Assembly (NCBI RefSeq): GCF_024734665.1
Contig: NZ_CP102931.1
Location: forward strand, 4,400,001-4,464,000
Origin: Variovorax paradoxus
GTDB lineage: Bacteria; Pseudomonadota; Gammaproteobacteria; Burkholderiales; Burkholderiaceae_C
DNA length: 64,000 nt
Direction: 5' to 3'
Shown here: in pieces, positions 12,522 to 25,049 of the stretch
How positions within the stretch are numbered: position 1 is the first letter of the stretch
Layout: the number at the start of each line of letters is the position of its first letter
Notes under the pieces: model-generated
Seen by the model: the letters and a program-made list of their open reading frames with translations, nothing else
What the model was told of the DNA's origin: nothing
Databases searched by the model: none
Translations under genes and position numbers: made by a program

Positions 12522-12537
12522 GGGCACGGATGTTGCA
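12522..12537 (+). promoter_or_regulatory. Sigma-54 (-24/-12) promoter of the NIT-ANTAR gene
   Basis: GGGCACGGATGTTGCA matches the sigma-54 consensus TGGCACGN4TTGCA at all defined positions except the first. The GG (12523-12524) and GC (12535-12536) doublets have the required 10-base separation. Transcription would start near 12548, 22 bases before the ATG. Confidence 0.75.
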
Positions 12538-12569: not shown

Positions 12570-13832
12570 ATGAAATCCGGACTGAGTTTTCTGATTGCCG
12601 CTCGCCGCTGCGAAATCGACGAGCTGGATCAGCTCGCCCGCACCAGCGAGCTGGTGGGCGTGATCGGCCGCCTCGTCCACGCGCTGCAGCGCGAGCGGGG
12701 CATGTCGAACATGTTCCTCACCTCGCGCGGCGCCCGCTTCGCCGACCAGCGCGGCCCGCAGATCGCCGAATGCATTGCGCTCGAGCAGGAGGTGCGCGCC
12801 GGCTTCGACCAGCTCGAGGCCGACAACCACCGCGGTGCGGGCCCCGGCAACAGCGCGCGCCTGTTCAGCCGCATCGCCTGGGTGCTCCCCGGCCTGGACG
12901 CCCTGCCCGGCCTGCGCCGCCGCATCGACGCGCTCGAACTGAAGCCCGCGCAGTCCACCGCTGCGTTCGCCAAGCTCGTCGCCGGCCTGCTGTCGGTGGT
13001 GTTCGAGGCGGCCGACGGCGCCACCGACCCCGAGATCTCGCGCCTGCTGGTCGCGATGTTCAACTTCATGCAGGGCAAGGAATTCGCCGGGCAGGAGCGC
13101 GCCTTCGGCTCCGCCGCGCTGGCGATGGGCCGCAGCGACGAGGCGCAGCGCCTGCAATGGCTACACCTGATCGAATCGCAGGAGCGCTGCTTCCAGGTGT
13201 TTGCCGATTTCTCCGGCGAGACCGTGCTCGCGCTCTGGCGCAACAGCCAGCCCGATGCCGAAGTGGCCGAGCTCGAACGCATCCGCCGCCGCGGTGCCGC
13301 CTCAGCGCCGGCTGACGTGCCGCTCAGCCAGGCCTGGTTCGACTGCTGCACCCGCCGCATCGACGCCATGAAGATCGTCGAGGACCGCTTGGCCGCCGAC
13401 CTGCGCTCGCTGTGCGAGCGCAAGACCGTGCAGGCGCGCAGCGAGTTGCAGGAATACCGGCAGCTGCTCGACACGCTGGCCCCGCAGGCCGGCGCCCTGT
13501 TCTTCGACGATGCCGATGCGCAGTCGGCCGCGCCCGCCCAGTTCGGCCGCCATCTTGAGCGTTCGGTGCTCGACATGGTCCAGGAACAGTCGCACCGCCT
13601 GCAGGCCATGAGCGACGAGCTCGAAACCGTGCGCGCCTCGCTCAACGAACGCAAGATCGTCGAACGCGCCAAGGGCCTGCTGATGGCGCACCGCCGGCTC
13701 AGCGAAGAAGACGCGCACAAGATGTTGCGCCAGACCGCCATGAACCAGAAGCGGCGGCTGGTCGATGTGGCCGAGTCGATGCTGGCAATGGCCGACTACC
13801 TGCCCATGCTCGACCGCACGCCGCCGCGCTGA
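12570..13832 (+). CDS. nasR: Nitrate/nitrite-responsive antiterminator with NIT and ANTAR domains (NasR-like)
   Basis: 420-residue cytoplasmic regulator. The N-terminal ~290 residues form a helical nitrate- and nitrite-sensing (NIT) domain, including the family hallmark [14 protein letters not shown] near residue 35. After a short coiled coil, an ANTAR RNA-binding domain occupies about residues 345-405 ([19 protein letters not shown] ... [17 protein letters not shown]). This is the architecture of Klebsiella NasR, which binds leader RNA and prevents termination when nitrate or nitrite is present. The nrtABD operon lies directly downstream and has a leader with two ANTAR-type hairpins and a terminator. 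A sigma-54 promoter precedes the gene. The symbol is by analogy. Confidence 0.92.
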
Positions 13833-13968: not shown

Positions 13969-13985
13969 TGGCACACCGCTTGCAA
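13969..13985 (+). promoter_or_regulatory. Sigma-54 (-24/-12) promoter of the nrtABD operon
   Basis: TGGCACACCGCTTGCAA: the -24 element TGGCAC and -12 element TTGCA are both perfect, with GG at 13970-13971 and GC at 13982-13983 in the required spacing. The predicted start near 13995 gives a ~180-base untranslated leader that contains the ANTAR hairpins and a terminator. Confidence 0.85.
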
Positions 13986-13998
13986 GCAATAAGTTCGT

Positions 13999-14016
13999 AG
14001 ACCCCTCAATGGGTCT
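13999..14016 (+). promoter_or_regulatory. 5'-end hairpin of the nrtA leader RNA
   Basis: AGACCC (13999-14004) / GGGTCT (14011-14016), a perfect 6-bp stem with loop CTCAAT. It would start about four bases after the predicted transcription start. The loop does not fit the ANTAR A1/G4 rule, so it may simply protect the 5' end. Confidence 0.5.
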
Positions 14017-14026
14017 TCAGGCAGGC

Positions 14027-14072
14027 GGCACCCAATGGCGGGTGTCTCCCACCGAACCGGACAAAGGCGTCC
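14027..14072 (+). promoter_or_regulatory. ANTAR-type dual-hairpin antiterminator RNA
   Basis: Two short hairpins with six-base loops follow the ANTAR rule of A at loop position 1 and G at position 4. P1: GGCACCC (14027-14033) / GGGTGTC (14040-14046, one G-U pair), loop AATGGC. P2: GGAC (14059-14062) / GTCC (14069-14072), loop AAAGGC. The linker is 12 bases. P2 shares 14063-14072 with the 5' arm of the terminator that follows, so the two structures exclude each other. The NIT-ANTAR protein encoded just upstream is the natural ligand. Confidence 0.8.
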
Positions 14073-14133
14073 CCATCCCGCAAGGGCTCGTTTTCGAGCA
14101 GCCCCTGCGCGGTGCGGACGCCTTTTCTTTTTT
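14063..14133 (+). terminator. Leader terminator in front of nrtA
   Basis: Perfect 10-bp stem AAAGGCGTCC (14063-14072) / GGACGCCTTT (14116-14125), with an inner GCTCG/CGAGC hairpin, followed by the U-rich run TTTTCTTTTTT. It would stop transcription 50 bases before nrtA unless the ANTAR hairpin P2 forms instead. Confidence 0.85.
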
Positions 14134-17188: not shown

Positions 17189-18466
17189 TCAAGACATGAT
17201 CACTTGCAGGCTGTGCTCATACGACGCGGTAAGGCGCTCGAAGGTATCGACCAGCGCGTCGCTGGAGCGCACCAGCGTGGCACGGCCGTCAGCGCTGTCG
17301 AGCGTGCGCACGCCGCCGACCAGCCGCAGCCATTCGTCGCGGGCGCTGGCCAGCGCGGCGCGGATCTCGGTGGTGCTGAGCGGCGCGTGCTCCAGTTCGA
17401 GCAACGCGGCCTCGAACTCGGCCATGGTCGGCACCAGCCGCGCGTTCGCGGCCTTCTCTTTCAGCGCGGCGGCCAGCAGTGCGTCCTTGGCCAGCCGCTG
17501 CGCACGCATGCGCTGCCGCCCGCAGATGTTGACGATGCGCAGCGCGCGCCGTGCGCCCGAGGTTTCGAGCGCCTCAGTCAAGGCCTCGGCGGCGCAGAGC
17601 AGCACTTCCGCGCGCTGGTCGATGTCGGCCAGCCCTGCTGCCGTCGGCCGTGCGGTCAAGGCAGTGGCCAGCCCGCTCCACGCGGCTTGCGCATCCCCCA
17701 GCGCCTGCGCGCCAACCGCGCCGAGCCCGAGGGCCGCCAGATGATCAAGGTTCTGCTGCACCCGTTCGGCCGACTGCGTGCGCAGCACCCGCGCCCGCTG
17801 CGCGTCGATGCTGCCCAGCAACTGCGCCGCCACGCGCACCAGCCGCTGCGAGAGCATGCGCAGCTGCCCGGCACGGTTGATCGCGTCGGCCCACTGCGCC
17901 GCCTCGATGACCGAGCGCGACACCTCGCCCAGACGCAAGTTGGCGTGCATCGCCGCGCCGCGCAGCAGCCCGAAGGCTTCGTCCTCGCCGATGCCGCGCG
18001 CGGACATCAGCAGGCCCTTGGCGCGGTCGACCCACTTGCGCTCGTCCATGCGGGTGCGCAGGCTCTCCAGTTCGGTGCGCAAAGTGGCCTCGCGCTGCCA
18101 GCGCGACTGGGCTCGGGCGGTCAATGCGGCGAGCGATGCGGCATCGATGGCATCGATCTGCATCCACGCGTGCACGCCGAGCGCGACCAGTTCTTCATGC
18201 TGCGCGCCGCTCAACGGCGCGCTGGCAAGGCTCAGCGCACACGGCGGCAGACCGGCCCACGTGCGCAATGCGTCGAGCAGCGCGGGCGTGGGCAAAGGCA
18301 GGCAAATCAAGGCCTGTCGAGGGGCCAGCGCCTCGACTTGCCGCGCGAAGCTGCCGCAATCCGCGCAGCCGAGCACGTCGAGACCAGCGACGGACAGTGC
18401 CCGCGCAAGCGCCTCGGGCAGCACGAGGCCGGCAGGTTCATCGGGCAGGACAACGAGAAGGGACAT
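17189..18466 (-). CDS. Pseudo-receiver-ANTAR protein with two NarX-type P-box (PilJ-like) segments
   Basis: 425-residue cytoplasmic protein. Residues 1-115 resemble a response-regulator receiver but the phospho-acceptor Asp is absent (ALICLPLPTP replaces the usual LLD motif). An ANTAR domain follows at about 133-192 (DERKWVDRAKGLLM). The C-terminal half holds two PilJ/NarX-type helical segments, with P-box-like motifs INRAGQLRMLSQRL (196-209) and VNICGRQRMRAQRL (312-325). In NarX/NarQ the P-box arginines bind nitrate in the periplasm; here it would be cytoplasmic. It is divergent from the nitrate transporter nasA. Inferred role: RNA-binding regulator of the nitrate genes, distinct from the NIT-ANTAR protein. 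Start chosen at ATG 18466. Confidence 0.8.
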   Translation of the reverse strand: MSLLVVLPDEPAGLVLPEALARALSVAGLDVLGCADCGSFARQVEALAPRQALICLPLPTPALLDALRTWAGLPPCALSLASAPLSGAQHEELVALGVHAWMQIDAIDAASLAALTARAQSRWQREATLRTELESLRTRMDERKWVDRAKGLLMSARGIGEDEAFGLLRGAAMHANLRLGEVSRSVIEAAQWADAINRAGQLRMLSQRLVRVAAQLLGSIDAQRARVLRTQSAERVQQNLDHLAALGLGAVGAQALGDAQAAWSGLATALTARPTAAGLADIDQRAEVLLCAAEALTEALETSGARRALRIVNICGRQRMRAQRLAKDALLAAALKEKAANARLVPTMAEFEAALLELEHAPLSTTEIRAALASARDEWLRLVGGVRTLDSADGRATLVRSSDALVDTFERLTASYEHSLQVIMS

Positions 18467-18564
18467 CTTGGGGAAGCGGTGTGGGAACGCACCGCGAGCA
18501 TAGGCCACGCCCGCGCGAACTCGCGGGCACGCCTCTTGCATGAAACGGAGCGCGGTGTAACGAA

Positions 18565-18602
18565 GCACCGCTTTGGTGATGAGGCTGCAGGCCCCTGCAG
18601 CC
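18565..18602. promoter_or_regulatory. Putative NtrC/sigma-54 elements and hairpin in the divergent nasA control region
   Basis: In the 266-base region between the ANTAR-PilJ gene and nasA lie GCACC-GCTTT-GGTG (18565-18578), the CACC-N5-GGTG core of an NtrC box; an overlapping weak -24/-12 candidate TGGTGATGAGGCTGCA (18574-18589); and a 9-bp-arm hairpin GGCTGCAGG/CCTGCAGCC (18583-18602). The overlap means not all can act together. No ANTAR-type hairpin pair was recognised in the remaining leader to 18732. Confidence 0.4.
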
Positions 18603-18732: not shown

Positions 18733-19992
18733 ATGTCCAGCTTCAGGAATTTCTTGCAATCAGGCCACAGCCCGACACTGTTCGCGGCCTTCCTGTACTT
18801 CTCGTTCTCCTGCTGCATCTGGGTGCTCAACGGCGCCATGGCGCCCTTCATCGGCGAAACCTTCAACCTCTCGCCGGCGCAGAAGGGCTTGATGCTGTCG
18901 GTGCCGATCATCGCGGGCGCGCTGATGCGCTTTCCGCTGGGCATCCTGTCGCAGTACATCGGCCGCAAGAAGGCCACGCTGGTCGAGATGGGCCTGATCG
19001 CGGTGGCGATGCTGTTCGGCTTCTTCTTCGTCAAGAGCTTCAACGACCTGCTCGCCATGGGCGTGCTGCTGGGCATTGCGGGCGCCAGCTTCGGCGTGGC
19101 GCTGTCGCTGGGCTCGGGCTGGTTCCCGCCGCAGCACAAGGGCCTGGCCATGGGCCTGGTGGGCGCGGGCAACGTGGGCACCGCGGTGTCGGTGCTGGTG
19201 GCGCCGCCTCTGGCGAACTGGCTGGGCTGGCAGGCGGTGTACGGCGTGGCCGCTGTCGCCATCCTCATTCCGATGGTCGTGATGGTGGTGTTCGCCAAGG
19301 AGCCACCAGACGTGAACGCTCATTCGAGCTTCCGCGAGCACATTGCCTGCCTGTTCGAGAAAGACGGCTGGGTGTTCAGCCTGATCTACGGCGTGACCTT
19401 CGGCGGCTTCATCGGCCTCACGACCTTCCTGCCCTCCTACTACTACGACCAGTTCGGCGTGAGCAAGGTGCAGGCCGGCCAGCTGACCATGCTCGCGGCC
19501 TTCATGGGCGCGGCGGTGCGCGTCGTGGGCGGCTGGATCTCCGACCGCTGGGGCGGCGTCAACACGCTGACCGTGGTGCTGCTGGTGGTGGCCGTGAGCC
19601 TCGTGCTGGTGGGCTTCTCTTCAGGCTCGCTGACCGTCACCACGCTGGTGCTGATCGTCTGCTTCGGTGCACTGGGTGCCGGCAACGGCGCGCTGTTCCA
19701 GCTGGTGCCGCTGCGCTGGCCCACAAGCACGGCAGTGGCCGGTTCGATGATCGGCGAGATCGGCGCGCTGGGCGGCGGCCTCGTGCCCAACGCGATGGGC
19801 CTGTCGAAGCAGTATCTGGGCAGCTACATCTGGGGCTTCGTGTTCTTCGCGGCGCTCTCGCTGGTGATGCTGGGCGTGATGCGCGTCATGCAGATCCGCT
19901 GGACGCGCACCTGGGCCGAAAAGGGTGGCCGTGCGCGTGTCACGACGCCGCACGCCGCGGCCACTCATATTCGAAAGACGGCACGCTCATGA
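18733..19992 (+). CDS. nasA: Nitrate/nitrite MFS transporter (NarK/NasA family)
   Basis: 419-residue inner-membrane transporter with about 12 helices. Both nitrate/nitrite porter signatures are present: LVGAGNVGTAVSVLVAP in the first half and GALGAGNGALFQLVPLRWP in the second. The conserved helix-2 arginine occurs in ALMRFPLG and helix-8 arginine in GAAVRVVGGW. It is the second nitrate uptake route in the cluster besides NrtABD, suggesting uptake at different concentrations. The ATG at 18733 is preferred over a TTG three codons upstream. It is convergent with the kinase/phosphatase gene (20 bases apart). The symbol follows Pseudomonas usage. Confidence 0.95.
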   Translation: MSSFRNFLQSGHSPTLFAAFLYFSFSCCIWVLNGAMAPFIGETFNLSPAQKGLMLSVPIIAGALMRFPLGILSQYIGRKKATLVEMGLIAVAMLFGFFFVKSFNDLLAMGVLLGIAGASFGVALSLGSGWFPPQHKGLAMGLVGAGNVGTAVSVLVAPPLANWLGWQAVYGVAAVAILIPMVVMVVFAKEPPDVNAHSSFREHIACLFEKDGWVFSLIYGVTFGGFIGLTTFLPSYYYDQFGVSKVQAGQLTMLAAFMGAAVRVVGGWISDRWGGVNTLTVVLLVVAVSLVLVGFSSGSLTVTTLVLIVCFGALGAGNGALFQLVPLRWPTSTAVAGSMIGEIGALGGGLVPNAMGLSKQYLGSYIWGFVFFAALSLVMLGVMRVMQIRWTRTWAEKGGRARVTTPHAAATHIRKTARS

Positions 19993-20012: not shown

Positions 20013-21734
20013 TCAACGTGGCAGGAACAACAGCCACACGATGAGCAGCACGTTGAACAGCACCGACACGCCAAGCGCGAGCTGGTAGAGCGCGAGCGGG
20101 TCGCGGCGGATCAGCGGCGTGGTGGCGGGCGCATTCACCGGGCGGGAAGCGCCGCGCTCCAGCGCGAGCAGCAGTTCCTCGGCGGTTTCGAAGCGCTCGC
20201 GCGGATCGCGGGCAACGGCCTTGCGCACCAGATGGTCGAGCCAGATCGGCACGTCGGGACGGATGCGCGAGAGCGCGACCGGATCGCGCCGGTAGCGCGC
20301 CACCTGGTAGGGCTCGATCTCGCCGTAGGGCAGATGCCCGGTGAGCCACTGGTACAGCGTGACGCCGAGCGCGAACAGGTCGCTGGCCGCGTCGGCGGTG
20401 CCGCCCTCCTCCCACTGCTCGGGGTTGATGTAGCTCGGCGTGCCGGCATGCAGCTCGCGCTGGGCAGCGCCTTCGCGGCCAGACAGCGCCACGCCGAGGT
20501 CGATGATGCGCCAGTGCCCGTCGTCGCCCAGGTGCAGGTTGCCGGGCTTGATGTCGCGATGGATCACGCCCTGCCGGTGCAGCCGGCCGAGCGCACGGCT
20601 CAGCTCGATGCCGGCGGCCACCACCTCGGCCACCGCGCCGCGCGCGTTCGCCTTGCGCAACTGCTCCAGCGTGCGCCCGCCATGCCAGTCGAACACGATG
20701 TACAGCGCGCTCGCGTTCTCGGCACGCTCGTGCACACGAACGAAACCACTGCCGCCAATACCTCCGACGCGCAGCCCCAGCCACGCCTCGTGCGCCAGCA
20801 TCGCGCGTTCCTGCGGATCGCCGGCACGCGAGGGATGCAGCGTCTTCAGCGCGACCAGCTCGCGCGTCTGCGGATGCCGCGCCTGGTACAGCAGGTGCAC
20901 GCCGGTGTCGGCCACCAGCGCGGTGATGGCGTAGCCGTCGAGCACGTCGCCCACTTTCAGCGCGGGCGGCGGTGCGAGCCGGCGACCGTCGCCGAGTTCG
21001 TCGTCGAGCTGGCGCGCATCGAGTCCCACCACGCGGATGACCAGCGCGGTCGCGTTGTCGCGCGTGCCGGCATCGAGCGCCGCATGCACCAGCGCCTCGC
21101 TGGCCGCTTCGGCATCGCCCTGCAGGGCCAGCGCGGCCACCTGCTGCGGCTTGAGCACGCCGTGCACGCCGTCGGAACTCAGCACGAAGCAATCGCCCAC
21201 GCGCACGTCGCCCTGGGCGTAGTCAACGCGCACCTGGTCGTCCAGGCCGATGGCGCGCGTGAGCCGGCTGCGCATGTCGGGGTGGTCGAAGGCATGGTCC
21301 TGCGTGAGCGGCACGGCCGGCCCGCCGCCGGCGCGCACGCGCCAGGCGCGCGTGTCGCCCACGTGCGCCAGCGTGTAGCTCTGTCCGTGCAGCACCAGTG
21401 CAGTGAGCGTGGTGAGCGCGGTGCCGCCGTCCTGCTTGCTCTGGCGCCGGCGGTTGTGGTCGGCCAACCAGCCGTTCTGCGCGCCGATCAGGCGGTCGAG
21501 CGCGGCGGTCGGCTCCCACGTTGCGGGCGTGGCGAAGTAGTCGGCCAGCAGGCCCATCACCGTGGTCTGCGCCGCCTCGCGGCCGTGCCCGCCGCTCGAC
21601 ACTCCATCGGCAATGGCTGCGATGAGGCCGCGTGCCTCGTCGCCCGACGGCGCATGCACTGCACCGGCGAAGTCTTCGTTCAGCTCGCGCGGTCCGCGCT
21701 GGCTGCTGTAGCCGATGTCCACTTCAAAGCTCAT
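20013..21734 (-). CDS. PP2C phosphatase-Ser/Thr kinase fusion, membrane-anchored
   Basis: 573-residue fusion. Residues 1-240 form a PP2C-type phosphatase with the metal-binding aspartates in IADGVSSGGHG (D43), LSSDGVHGV (D188) and TRDNATALV (D226). Residues ~265-530 are a Hanks-type kinase: ATP lysine in VALKTLHP (K297), catalytic loop IHRDIKPGN (391-399) and DLG (412-414). A single membrane helix ends the protein (about 549-571). All catalytic residues appear intact. A kinase gene also lies in the nas cluster of Pseudomonas aeruginosa, so the association is conserved, but its target is unknown. It is divergent from nirB (64-base gap). Start chosen at ATG 21734. Confidence 0.9.
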   Translation of the reverse strand: MSFEVDIGYSSQRGPRELNEDFAGAVHAPSGDEARGLIAAIADGVSSGGHGREAAQTTVMGLLADYFATPATWEPTAALDRLIGAQNGWLADHNRRRQSKQDGGTALTTLTALVLHGQSYTLAHVGDTRAWRVRAGGGPAVPLTQDHAFDHPDMRSRLTRAIGLDDQVRVDYAQGDVRVGDCFVLSSDGVHGVLKPQQVAALALQGDAEAASEALVHAALDAGTRDNATALVIRVVGLDARQLDDELGDGRRLAPPPALKVGDVLDGYAITALVADTGVHLLYQARHPQTRELVALKTLHPSRAGDPQERAMLAHEAWLGLRVGGIGGSGFVRVHERAENASALYIVFDWHGGRTLEQLRKANARGAVAEVVAAGIELSRALGRLHRQGVIHRDIKPGNLHLGDDGHWRIIDLGVALSGREGAAQRELHAGTPSYINPEQWEEGGTADAASDLFALGVTLYQWLTGHLPYGEIEPYQVARYRRDPVALSRIRPDVPIWLDHLVRKAVARDPRERFETAEELLLALERGASRPVNAPATTPLIRRDPLALYQLALGVSVLFNVLLIVWLLFLPR

Positions 21735-21798
21735 GGCGCGATTCTGAACGCGCGCCGCGGGCGCCCGTTTGCTTGATTTCCCTGAAAGGTCCAGCCCC

Positions 21799-24243
21799 AT
21801 GAAGAAAATGAAACTCGTGATGGTCGGCAACGGCATGGCCGGCGTGCGCACGCTCGAAGAGCTGCTGAAGATCGCGCCCGAGCTGTACGACATCACCGTC
21901 TTCGGCGCGGAGCCGCATCCCAACTACAACCGCATCCTGCTGTCGCCGGTGCTGGCGGGCGAGCAGACGGTCGACGAGATCGTGCTCAACAGCTGGGAGT
22001 GGTACACGGACAACAACATCACGCTGCACGCCGGCAAGAAGGTGGTGGAAGTCGACCGCGTCAAGCGCATCGTGCGCGCCGTGGATTCGCAAGGCGATGT
22101 CACCGAGGCCGCCTACGACCGCCTGCTGATGTGCACCGGCTCCAACCCCTTCATGCTGCCGGTGCCCGGCAAGGACTTGAAGGGCGTGATCGCCTACCGC
22201 GACATCGCCGACACCGACTACATGATCGAGACCGCGCGCACGCACAAGAACGCGGTGGTCATCGGCGGCGGCCTGCTGGGCCTGGAAGCCGCCAACGGCC
22301 TGATGCTGCGCGGCATGAACGTGACAGTGGTGCACGTGATGCCCTGGCTGATGGAGCGCCAGCTCGACGACGTGGCGGGCAAGCTGCTGCAGAAGTCGCT
22401 GGAAGACCGGGGCCTGAAGTTCCTGATGGGCGCGCAGACGCAAGACCTAGTGGGCGGTGAAGATGGCCGCGTCAAGAGCATCCGCTTCAAGGACGGCACC
22501 GAAGTGGCCGCCGACCTGGTGGTGATGGCCGTGGGCATCCGCCCCAACGTGGAGCTGGCCGAGAAGATGCGCCTGCACTGCAACCGCGGCATCGTCGTCA
22601 ACGACACCATGCAGACCGTGACCGATGCGCGCATCTACTCGGTCGGCGAATGCGCGGCGCACCGCGGCATTGCCTACGGCCTGGTCGCTCCGCTGTTCGA
22701 GCAGGCCAAGGTGGCGGCCAACCACCTGGCGCAGTTCGGCATCGGCCGCTACCTGGGCTCGCTCACCTCCACCAAGCTGAAGGTGACGGGCATCGACCTG
22801 TTCTCGGCCGGCGAGTTCATGGGCGGCGAAGGCACTGAAGAGATCGTCATGAGCGACCCCTTCGGCGGCGTCTACAAGAAGCTGGTGATCAAGGACGACA
22901 AGCTGGTGGGCGCCTGCCTCTACGGCGACACGGTGGACGGCAGCTGGTACTTCAAGCTGCTGCGCGACGGCCGCAGCGTGCACGACATCCGCGACAAGCT
23001 GATGTTCGGCGAATCGAACATCGGCGACACCGGCCACGAGGGCCACAACAAGGCCGCGAGCATGCCCGACGACGCCGAGGTCTGCGGCTGCAACGGCGTG
23101 AACAAGGGCACCATCTGCAAGGCCATCAAGGAAAAGGGCCTGTTCACGCTCGACGAGGTGAAGAAGCACACCAAGGCGAGCGCCAGCTGCGGCTCGTGCA
23201 CTGGGCTGGTCGAGCAGATCCTGATGTTCACCGCCGGCGGCGACTACTCGGCCACACCCAAGAAAAAGGCCGTGTGCGGCTGCACCGACGCAAGCCACCA
23301 GGACGTGCGCGACGCAATCCGCAAGGAGCACTACCTGACGCACGACGAGGTGTATCGCAACCTCGGCTGGCGCACGCCCAACGGCTGCGCTACCTGCCGC
23401 CCGGCCATCAACTACTACCTGATCAGCACCTGGCCGAAGGAGGCCAAGGACGATCCGCAGAGCCGCTTCATCAACGAACGCAGCCACGCCAACATCCAGA
23501 AGGACGGCACCTACTCCGTCATCCCGCGTATGTGGGGCGGCCACACCACGCCCGACGAGTTGCGCCGCATTGCCGACGCGGCCGACAAGTACAAGATTCC
23601 GACCGTCAAGGTCACGGGCGGCCAGCGCATCGACCTGCTGGGCGTGAAGAAGGAAGACCTGGAAAACGTCTGGAAGGACATCGGCATGCCCAGCGGCTTT
23701 GCCTACGCCAAGTCGCTGCGCACGGTGAAGACCTGCGTGGGCAGCGAGTGGTGCCGCTTCGGCACGCAAGACTCCACGCAGATGGGCAAGGACCTGGAGC
23801 GCGCGCTGTGGGCCATGTACTCGCCGCACAAGGTCAAGCTGGCGGTGTCGGGCTGCCCGCGCAACTGCGCGGAGGCCGGCATCAAGGACGTGGGCGTGAT
23901 CGGCGTCGACTCGGGCTGGGAGCTGTACGTGGGCGGCAACGGCGGCATCAAGACCGAGGTGGCGCAGTTTCTCGTGAAGGTGAAGACAGCCGAGGAAGTG
24001 ATGGAGTACTCGGGCGCCTTCCTGCAGCTGTACCGCGAAGAGGGCTGGTACCTGGAGCGCACGGTGCACTACATCGGCCGCGTGGGGCTGGACTACGTGA
24101 AGAAGAAGATCCTCGAGGACGCCGAAGGCCGCAAGGCGCTGTGGGAGCGCCTGCAGTTCGCGCTCGACGGCGAGCCCGATCCGTGGTTCGAATCGGCGCA
24201 GGCCTCGGTGGACGTGCGGCAGTTCACGCCGCTGACGGCGTGA
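21799..24243 (+). CDS. nirB: Nitrite reductase [NAD(P)H], large subunit
   Basis: 814-residue cytoplasmic enzyme that reduces nitrite to ammonium with NirD. Domains in order: FAD/NAD(P)H oxidoreductase (Rossmann MVGNGMAGVRTLEELL at the start; second NAD motif VVIGGGLLGLEAANGL), two BFD-like [2Fe-2S] segments (VCGCNGVNKGTICKAI and VCGCTDASHQDVRDAI), then the sulfite/nitrite reductase ferredoxin half and the siroheme/[4Fe-4S] domain with TCVGSEWCRFG and SGCPRNCAEAG supplying the four cysteines. Length matches the family (~850). An AAAGG ribosome-binding site precedes ATG 21799. The next start (TTG 24258) follows the stop by 14 bases. Confidence 0.97.
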   Translation: MKKMKLVMVGNGMAGVRTLEELLKIAPELYDITVFGAEPHPNYNRILLSPVLAGEQTVDEIVLNSWEWYTDNNITLHAGKKVVEVDRVKRIVRAVDSQGDVTEAAYDRLLMCTGSNPFMLPVPGKDLKGVIAYRDIADTDYMIETARTHKNAVVIGGGLLGLEAANGLMLRGMNVTVVHVMPWLMERQLDDVAGKLLQKSLEDRGLKFLMGAQTQDLVGGEDGRVKSIRFKDGTEVAADLVVMAVGIRPNVELAEKMRLHCNRGIVVNDTMQTVTDARIYSVGECAAHRGIAYGLVAPLFEQAKVAANHLAQFGIGRYLGSLTSTKLKVTGIDLFSAGEFMGGEGTEEIVMSDPFGGVYKKLVIKDDKLVGACLYGDTVDGSWYFKLLRDGRSVHDIRDKLMFGESNIGDTGHEGHNKAASMPDDAEVCGCNGVNKGTICKAIKEKGLFTLDEVKKHTKASASCGSCTGLVEQILMFTAGGDYSATPKKKAVCGCTDASHQDVRDAIRKEHYLTHDEVYRNLGWRTPNGCATCRPAINYYLISTWPKEAKDDPQSRFINERSHANIQKDGTYSVIPRMWGGHTTPDELRRIADAADKYKIPTVKVTGGQRIDLLGVKKEDLENVWKDIGMPSGFAYAKSLRTVKTCVGSEWCRFGTQDSTQMGKDLERALWAMYSPHKVKLAVSGCPRNCAEAGIKDVGVIGVDSGWELYVGGNGGIKTEVAQFLVKVKTAEEVMEYSGAFLQLYREEGWYLERTVHYIGRVGLDYVKKKILEDAEGRKALWERLQFALDGEPDPWFESAQASVDVRQFTPLTA

Positions 24244-24257
24244 GCGGAGAAAACGGG

Positions 24258-25049
24258 TTGAAACGCAGGATCTTCATCGCTTCCGCGGCAGTGGCCGGCC
24301 TGGGCGTCGGCCTGCGCGCCAACGCGCAGATTGCCGACCTCAACGACGCGATCAACAAGGCGGGCCGCCTGCGCATGCTGTCGCAGCGTGCGAGCAAGGC
24401 CTACCTGGCGCTGGTGCAGAAGGTGGAATCGCGCAATGCGCAGCAGGTGCTCGACAAGTCGATTTCGCTGTTCGAGCGCCAGCTTGGCGAGCTGAAGGCC
24501 TTTGCGCCCAGCCCGGCAATCCGCGCCACCTACGAGTCGCTCGACGGCGCCTGGAACGCGTTCAAGAACGAGCTCACGGATGCAGCGCCAAGCATGGAAG
24601 AAGCCGCCCGAGTGGTGAAGTTGGACGCCACGGTGCTCGCGCTCGCCAACCAGGGCACCGCGCAGTACGAAGCCGCTTCGGGCAAACCGGTGGGCAAGCT
24701 GGTCAACATTGCCGGCCGCCAGCGCATGCTGTCGCAGCGCATGGCCAAGTTCTACCTGGCCACGGCCATGCAGATCGATCCGGCGGGCAGCACGGCCGAG
24801 ATCGGCAAGTCGCGCGCCGAATTCCTGGCCGCGCTCGAAGTGCTGCGCAACGCGCCCGAAGCCACTGCGCAGATCAGGCAGGAGCTGGTGCTGGCCGATG
24901 CGCAATGGATCTTCTTCAACCGGGGCCTGCAGCGCCTCGAAGGCGCCGGCGCCTCGCCTGCGTTGATGTCCGACGTGTTCGTCAGCAGCGAGAACCTGCT
25001 GGCGATCATGGACCGCGTGACCGGCCTGTATTCAGAAATCAAGACATAG
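24258..25049 (+). CDS. Exported protein with two NarX-type P-box (PilJ-like) motifs
   Basis: 263-residue protein with an N-terminal signal peptide (MKRRIFIASAAVAGLGVGL, cleavage likely after ANA at 21-23). The mature part consists of helices with two P-box-like motifs, INKAGRLRMLSQR (32-44) and VNIAGRQRMLSQR (149-161), as in the nitrate-binding sensor regions of NarX and NarQ and the PilJ N-terminal family. No kinase, HAMP or membrane helix follows, so it would be a soluble periplasmic protein. It lies between nirB and nirD. The start is a TTG with GGAGA eight bases upstream; a GTG at 24240 overlapping the nirB stop is the alternative. Inferred role: periplasmic nitrate/nitrite sensing or binding; unproven. 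Confidence 0.8.
   Translation: MKRRIFIASAAVAGLGVGLRANAQIADLNDAINKAGRLRMLSQRASKAYLALVQKVESRNAQQVLDKSISLFERQLGELKAFAPSPAIRATYESLDGAWNAFKNELTDAAPSMEEAARVVKLDATVLALANQGTAQYEAASGKPVGKLVNIAGRQRMLSQRMAKFYLATAMQIDPAGSTAEIGKSRAEFLAALEVLRNAPEATAQIRQELVLADAQWIFFNRGLQRLEGAGASPALMSDVFVSSENLLAIMDRVTGLYSEIKT

Follow-up and report, generated by a model that had tools for sequence, protein, structure and literature searches.

Can a single soluble protein sense nitrate and pass the signal directly to RNA? This question is raised by a minus-strand gene in a stretch of 64,000 nucleotides from the genome of Variovorax paradoxus (the window; contig NZ_CP102931.1, positions 4,400,001 to 4,464,000), whose product P0002, here called PilJ-ANTAR, combines a receiver-like domain, an ANTAR RNA-binding domain and two PilJ repeats (Table 1). 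With moderate confidence, we regard it as a one-component cytoplasmic regulator of the NasR kind, in which the tandem PilJ module senses nitrate or nitrite and the ANTAR domain acts on the leader of a narK-type transporter gene. PilJ-ANTAR probably switches back-to-back nitrate-use genes by contacting their hairpin-bearing RNA. Its architecture, fold, conservation and gene linkage as well as the RNA hairpin were established by computation.

The gene translates into 425 amino acids without a stop, and Pfam confirmed the combination of domains which an earlier note had read from the letters of this DNA: ANTAR (PF03861) scored 66.6 bits against a curated cut-off of 27.3, and PilJ (PF13675) was matched in two stretches with 58.3 bits against a curated cut-off of 26.6. 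The NIT domain PF08376 was absent from the Pfam matches with E values up to 1, and Pfam found no kinase domain. Because residues 6–187 align with EutV and residues 19–189 with Rv1626, the N-terminus is receiver-like. As the earlier note had stated, this receiver is degenerate: matched by eye, Pro57 occupies the column of the EutV phospho-Asp, and the aligned members have Pro in 82 of 94 cases and Asp in none. These 94 rows, which underlie all conservation counts given here, are P0002 and 93 of 240 listed homologs, showing 35–94% identity to P0002; the 240 homologs comprise the best 120 of 1712 from the search with P0002 and the best 120 of 1877 with a 38%-identical member as query. The positions of R340, K341, K345 and K347 of NasR were matched by eye to R143, K144, R148 and K150 of PilJ-ANTAR, and these columns hold R or K in all 94 members. 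The highest Kyte-Doolittle mean over 19 residues is 1.49, so no transmembrane helix was seen, in agreement with the note, and the predicted location is the cytoplasm. Both ANTAR and PilJ are among the precomputed Pfam domains of all 240 listed homologs, so the architecture is visible in databases. Among the titles listed in literature searches, none was on an ANTAR-PilJ protein; a figure of an ANTAR paper, available in excerpt, displays 17 domain architectures, and the excerpted McpN paper (PMC6381276) mentions PilJ domains with an N-box in transcriptional regulators as well.

How such a protein may bind nitrate is suggested by its AlphaFold2 model, which contains the four-helix bundles expected by the earlier note in two sets, matching PilJ and McpN at a root-mean-square deviation of 1.8. 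Structurally, the tandem sensor was matched best by the NIT domain of NasR (4akk), at 8% identity, and R203 and R319 are located on the first helix of each four-helix set of the model. In NasR, nitrate is bound between two arginines on adjacent helices, according to the part of PMC5424462 available to us, and because the fold matches NasR, we prefer a single shared site; two separate nitrate sites, one in each P-box, were rejected. By analogy with NasR, the modelled fold makes it more likely that the two P-boxes form one shared site than two NarX-like sites. An ANTAR-linked sensor of the NarX/PilJ fold with no apparent membrane helix is supported by the Pfam matches, the hydropathy and the same model. 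The tandem PilJ module would represent the single-chain counterpart of the NarX/McpN sensor dimer, with one four-helix bundle per repeat, and one nitrate (or nitrite) is predicted between Arg203 (helix 1 of bundle 1) and Arg319 (helix 1 of bundle 2). The helix of P-box 1 appears to continue the last ANTAR helix directly, and ligand binding could therefore shift or expose the RNA-binding face.

The P-boxes are conserved. N197, R198, G200, R203, L205, S206, Q207 and R208 of P-box 1 are invariant in all 94 rows, as are N313, R317, Q318, R319, M320 and Q323 of P-box 2, and the Gly-x-x-Arg of the ligand site is present in both PilJ repeats, which gave no BLAST alignment with each other. With Gly200, Arg203 and Arg319 kept in 94/94 and Gly316 in 93/94 members across 35–94% identity, the aligned sequences indicate that the pair of P-boxes is more than a chance resemblance. 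The same conservation of the P-boxes and of the ANTAR face down to 35% identity, together with the presence of both domains in all 240 listed homologs, makes it very improbable that PilJ-ANTAR is a degenerating or structural relic with no sensing role, as the loss of the phospho-Asp from its receiver might suggest.

The gene neighbourhood points to nitrate use. The narK-type gene on the plus strand is divergent from the PilJ-ANTAR gene on the minus strand; its TIGR00886 score of 243.7 bits is below the cut-off of 311.7. Among 399 sampled genomes from 141 genera of the same family, PilJ-ANTAR was matched at a threshold of E ≤ 1e-25 in 77 genomes and 35 genera, with one match (G483) covering residues 59–279 only. 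In 369 sampled genomes of the class, uninterrupted near-full matches were seen only in the V. paradoxus genome itself and in G107 of the same family, while the remaining listed matches were partial or crossed stops. Neighbours were surveyed by tblastn with twelve proteins of the window's cluster, so that only those neighbours were detectable. The nearest divergent neighbour was narK (30) or nirB (10) in all 40 fetched family stretches, and 14 more family genomes with short loci, our own included, showed narK (10), nirB (2) or an nrtA-like gene (2; G702 and G760), resulting in a nitrate-use gene divergent from PilJ-ANTAR in 54 of 54 family loci. A contig scan placed the start of the PilJ-ANTAR gene within 41 of 44 loci, and narK was divergent in each of the 41, one of which (L106) duplicates a record already included among the 40 stretches (L129); two of the other three loci were cut at the contig start, and the third contained an unrelated Aquimarina protein. 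NrtABC and NIT-ANTAR, the second ANTAR regulator of the window, were found in only some of the 40 stretches. As a side observation, a gene between narK and nirB (20013–21923, minus strand), whose product looks, by eye, like a Ser/Thr phosphatase fused to a kinase, is also there in many relatives.

The known RNA targets of ANTAR domains are small hairpins with hexanucleotide loops carrying A1 and G4 (PMC7496416, PMC3369931; both available in part), and a hairpin of this type follows the sigma-54-type site of narK after a gap of 11 nt. An A1/G4 hexaloop hairpin is present in 41 of 41 leaders from the contig scan, which are nearly all from Variovorax and hence not independent, and over 82 leaders we counted 79 such hairpins on the sense strand versus 11 on the antisense strand. 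Together, the window and the 40 family stretches provided 28 sigma-54-like sites (27 loci) with 45 nt downstream, the other 14 loci being without a usable site by the pattern. A hexaloop stem of at least 5 bp followed 24 of the 28 sites, and all 24 have a purine1/G4 loop (L130 contains an extra hexaloop of another type), whereas dinucleotide-shuffled controls produced a mean of 1.1 and a maximum of 5 for purine1/G4 hexaloops, and 6.6 and 11 for any hexaloop. Under a looser rule, hairpin candidates were obtained in 43 of 47 leaders, with probably wrong picks in L121 and L143. The second stem pair is G-C in 39 of the 40 distinct candidates and the closing pair is C-G or U-G in 39, neither of which was imposed by the search; the outer pairs vary (GC, CG, AU, UA), which is no independent proof of covariation because the candidates were chosen for pairing. 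Of 38 leaders, 14 have a second R1/G4-type hairpin about 22–28 nt downstream of the first, compared with a mean of 2.5 and a maximum of 8 in shuffled sequences. Rfam gave no match in the window at gathering scores, and a consensus fold of 27 narK leaders yielded nothing useful. The RNA target is likely to be found in the cluster's own leader: the ANTAR domain would bind the hexaloop hairpin that lies close to where the divergent sigma-54-type narK transcript is predicted to start, and would thereby raise the expression of the nitrate/nitrite genes, with antitermination as the readout that we infer.

The genome (one contig of 7.29 Mb) contains two ANTAR matches, both within the nitrate cluster, and six PilJ-domain matches in three open frames. 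The other ANTAR protein is the NasR-like NIT-ANTAR regulator, which the earlier note had located 3.4 kb away and whose gene indeed ends 3.36 kb from the PilJ-ANTAR gene; a sigma-54-like site, GGGCACGGATGTTGCA, lies immediately upstream of the NIT-ANTAR gene (12522–12537, plus strand). The nrtA leader has the NasR arrangement, although the generic terminator scan, which reported none in either the narK or the nrtA leader of the window, and Rfam both missed it. The stem tops of the two leaders differ, being GT[loop]GC at narK versus CC[loop]GG at nrtA. In four related loci (L114, L131, L139 and L151), a match to another ANTAR protein, perhaps NasT, adjoins nrtABC, corresponding to the position of NIT-ANTAR in Variovorax, and PilJ-ANTAR still adjoins narK or nirB.

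Several observations weigh against our reading, both on the sensor side and on the RNA side. Arg203 and Arg319 would be equivalent to the nitrate arginines of NasR on helix 1 and helix 5 of its two bundles, the second of which is Arg49, as judged from the aligned ranges of the model. With a predicted template modelling score of 0.70, this model is more reliable for the individual domains than for how the sensor is placed on the ANTAR domain. The two P-box segments quoted in the earlier note are exact and their arginines conserved, but they are not strict McpN N-boxes: the pattern [IVL]-[ND]-x-A-G-x-Q-R-M-L-[ST]-Q matches neither P-box of P0002, and of the 94 members, 10 match it once, 3 match it twice and the other 81 not at all. 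P-box 2 deviates from it at C315, R321 and A322. The PilJ of Pseudomonas, also a tandem PilJ protein, is described in the excerpted PMC6381276 as lacking conserved N-boxes and nitrate binding. The deviations of P-box 2 and the case of Pseudomonas PilJ would fit a tandem module that responds not to nitrate but to something else, be it only nitrite, a different anion or a partner protein, with the ANTAR domain acting on the same leader, and a different ligand would also explain why a genome already equipped with NIT-ANTAR retains both proteins. We consider this explanation fairly unlikely, given that the divergent neighbour is a nitrate-use gene in every locus checked.

On the RNA side, the narK leader of the window is devoid of a second A/G-type hexaloop hairpin. 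Intrinsic terminators were predicted by folding in 8 of 40 leaders, which is the level of the shuffles (6–10 in ten rounds), and with ungapped stems in 3 of 40 narK/nirB leaders versus 0.95 expected. The terminator candidate of the window (−24.6 kcal/mol, before TTTTCGCA) is of a kind that shuffles also yield; L114, L130, L131 and L139 share a GGC...GGCC-TTTT terminator, as seen by eye. Furthermore, genomes with NIT-ANTAR and without detected PilJ-ANTAR (20 searched, 3 not fetched) provided 17 loci, and in 4 of these a similar hairpin follows a sigma-54 site at narK or nirB, so the hairpin is not specific to PilJ-ANTAR. In 7 of these 17 loci, nirB overlaps nrtC or follows it at a distance of no more than about 110 bp, which leaves nirB without a leader of its own. 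A clean split of RNA specificity, with GY[loop]GC read by PilJ-ANTAR and CC[loop]GG by NIT-ANTAR, was rejected on the basis of the loci without detected PilJ-ANTAR, of which L154 and L156 carry the GY[loop]GC type at narK or nirB, L162 a near variant and L164 the CC type. These four loci and the missing canonical second hairpin at narK would suit a scheme in which both leaders are read by NIT-ANTAR (or NasT), whereas PilJ-ANTAR serves as a modulator or has its target at another place and its adjacency to narK is a regulatory convenience. We hold this to be rather improbable in view of the different stem tops in the window and of the distribution of the proteins: NIT-ANTAR was matched in 103 of the 399 family genomes and together with PilJ-ANTAR in only 16, so 61 of the 77 PilJ-ANTAR genomes are without detected NIT-ANTAR. 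Moreover, the five genomes from four genera in which PilJ-ANTAR is the only ANTAR match keep the hairpin. A sigma-54 site plus hairpin precedes nirB in G499, narK in G547 and an nrtA-like gene in G702 and G760 (completeness 82% and 91%), and the fifth genome, G653, contains GCGC[AACGAA]GCGC with a 4-bp stem before nirB. In two of the five, the gene that follows the hairpin is thus nrtA-like and neither narK nor nirB, which belongs among the points against our proposal; in these loci of one genus (L049 and L048, respectively), the regulator is divergent from the nrtA-like gene with the same sigma-54 site and hairpin.

With regard to the one-protein cytoplasmic nitrate-to-RNA switch proposed in the earlier note, the analysis gives partial support: the sensor fold, the conserved arginines and a likely leader target agree with such a role, and two separate sites give way to a shared one as the likelier arrangement. 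The note had also presented this switch as parallel to and different from NIT-ANTAR; the two are not very different, since the tandem sensor has its closest structural counterpart in the NIT domain of NasR. NasR already sets the precedent for a single cytoplasmic protein that passes a nitrate signal to RNA, so the novelty resides in the sensor family and the domain order and not in the principle. NasR of Klebsiella oxytoca shares with PilJ-ANTAR a soluble single-protein combination of sensor and ANTAR domain, two sets of four helices whose first helices each bear an arginine, and a leader with a hexaloop hairpin at a nitrate operon. PilJ-ANTAR differs in a sensor made of two PF13675 repeats instead of PF08376, with little sequence similarity in the structural match, in the reversed order with ANTAR preceding the sensor, and in the additional receiver-like domain. 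It shares the receiver-like and ANTAR half and the nitrate gene context with NasT/NasS, but its sensor is fused in cis as two PilJ repeats instead of being a separate NasS. The sensors of McpN, NarX and NarQ likewise form four-helix bundles with a conserved N-x-x-G-x-x-R on the first helix; they are periplasmic and build their site from two chains, whereas PilJ-ANTAR contains both halves in one chain and, unlike the NarX/NarQ kinases, has neither a transmembrane stretch by hydropathy nor a kinase domain. The PilJ chemoreceptor of Pseudomonas aeruginosa (7zjr, 8wdf) also has tandem PilJ bundles but is a membrane protein.

A relative of the sensor is encoded between nirB and nirD, where a free-standing tandem-PilJ protein with two P-boxes and no ANTAR domain shows 31% identity to the sensor half of PilJ-ANTAR over both repeats. 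The strict McpN N-box is matched by P-box 2 of this protein, which may serve the operon by binding nitrate in the periplasm. Similar free-standing proteins were also seen in an Aquimarina and in further families of the class, and 9 of the 40 family loci have a match in the nirB-nasA stretch. In a tree from 67 input rows, two of which were dropped (L129_1 as a duplicate, L151_2 as poor), 45 PilJ-ANTAR and 20 free-standing proteins are located on two sides of one fully supported branch. From these sequences, the tree fits a single fusion event and does not show the donor of the sensor. The rows of the sensor alignment include the ANTAR half, and when its profile was compared with NIT-ANTAR, it was mainly the ANTAR parts that aligned.

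Table 1. Features of the window discussed in the text; positions are counted from its first nucleotide
Feature	Position	Strand	Basis or conservation
PilJ-ANTAR regulator (P0002), receiver-like - ANTAR - PilJ - PilJ, 425 aa	17189..18466	-	Pfam, alignments, AlphaFold2 model m878fd7c93796
Receiver-like domain without phospho-Asp, residues 1-131	18074..18466	-	alignment and structural match
ANTAR RNA-binding domain, residues 134-187	17906..18067	-	PF03861, 66.6 bits
PilJ repeat 1, four helices, residues 190-306	17549..17899	-	
P-box 1, INRAGQLRMLSQRL, residues 196-209, G200 and R203	17840..17881	-	both kept 94/94
PilJ repeat 2, four helices, residues 307-424	17195..17548	-	
P-box 2, VNICGRQRMRAQRL, residues 312-325, G316 and R319	17492..17533	-	G316 93/94, R319 94/94
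Sigma-54-type promoter for narK, GGGCACGCCTCTTGCA, divergent from regulator	18525..18540	+	pattern match only
ANTAR-type hexaloop hairpin GCGGTGT[AACGAA]GCACCGC, near predicted narK transcript 5' end	18552..18571	+	
Second narK-leader hairpin, tetraloop, not of A1/G4 hexaloop type	18583..18602	+	
narK-type nitrate/nitrite transporter, predicted target gene	18733..19992	+	TIGR00886, 243.7 bits; start read by eye
NIT-ANTAR (NasR-like) regulator	12570..13832	+	Pfam
nrtA leader (sigma-54 site, two hairpins, terminator)	13969..14133	+	
nrtA sigma-54 site	13969-13984	+	
nrtA first hairpin, P1-like, loop CTCAAT (RNNGNN in several relatives)	13999-14016	+	
nrtA second hairpin P2, loop AATGGC	14027-14046	+	
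nrtA strong terminator, folding at about -41 kcal/mol	14063-14133	+	
Tandem-PilJ protein, signal-like N-terminus, between nirB and nirD	24258..25049	+	Pfam, alignment

Beyond a regulator of the NasR kind, PilJ-ANTAR may tentatively be seen as a second, independently assembled nitrate-to-RNA switch, in which the NarX/McpN dimer fold was turned into a single-chain cytoplasmic pseudo-dimer linked to the ANTAR domain by one uninterrupted helix and which uses a single-hairpin readout in Variovorax; we regard this as possible but doubtful. If it were true, the Variovorax readout without the canonical second hairpin and terminator would represent a way of ANTAR control that is new. As a NasR-like regulator, PilJ-ANTAR would mean that different sensor families gave rise at least two times to the solution known from NasR, a soluble nitrate sensor joined to an ANTAR domain, and that a sensor fold of the periplasm can function in the cytoplasm as a one-chain pseudo-dimer. 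The locus offers a test system of a single protein, a single promoter and an RNA hairpin of 20 nt, and NIT-ANTAR, encoded in the same cluster, is its built-in comparison.
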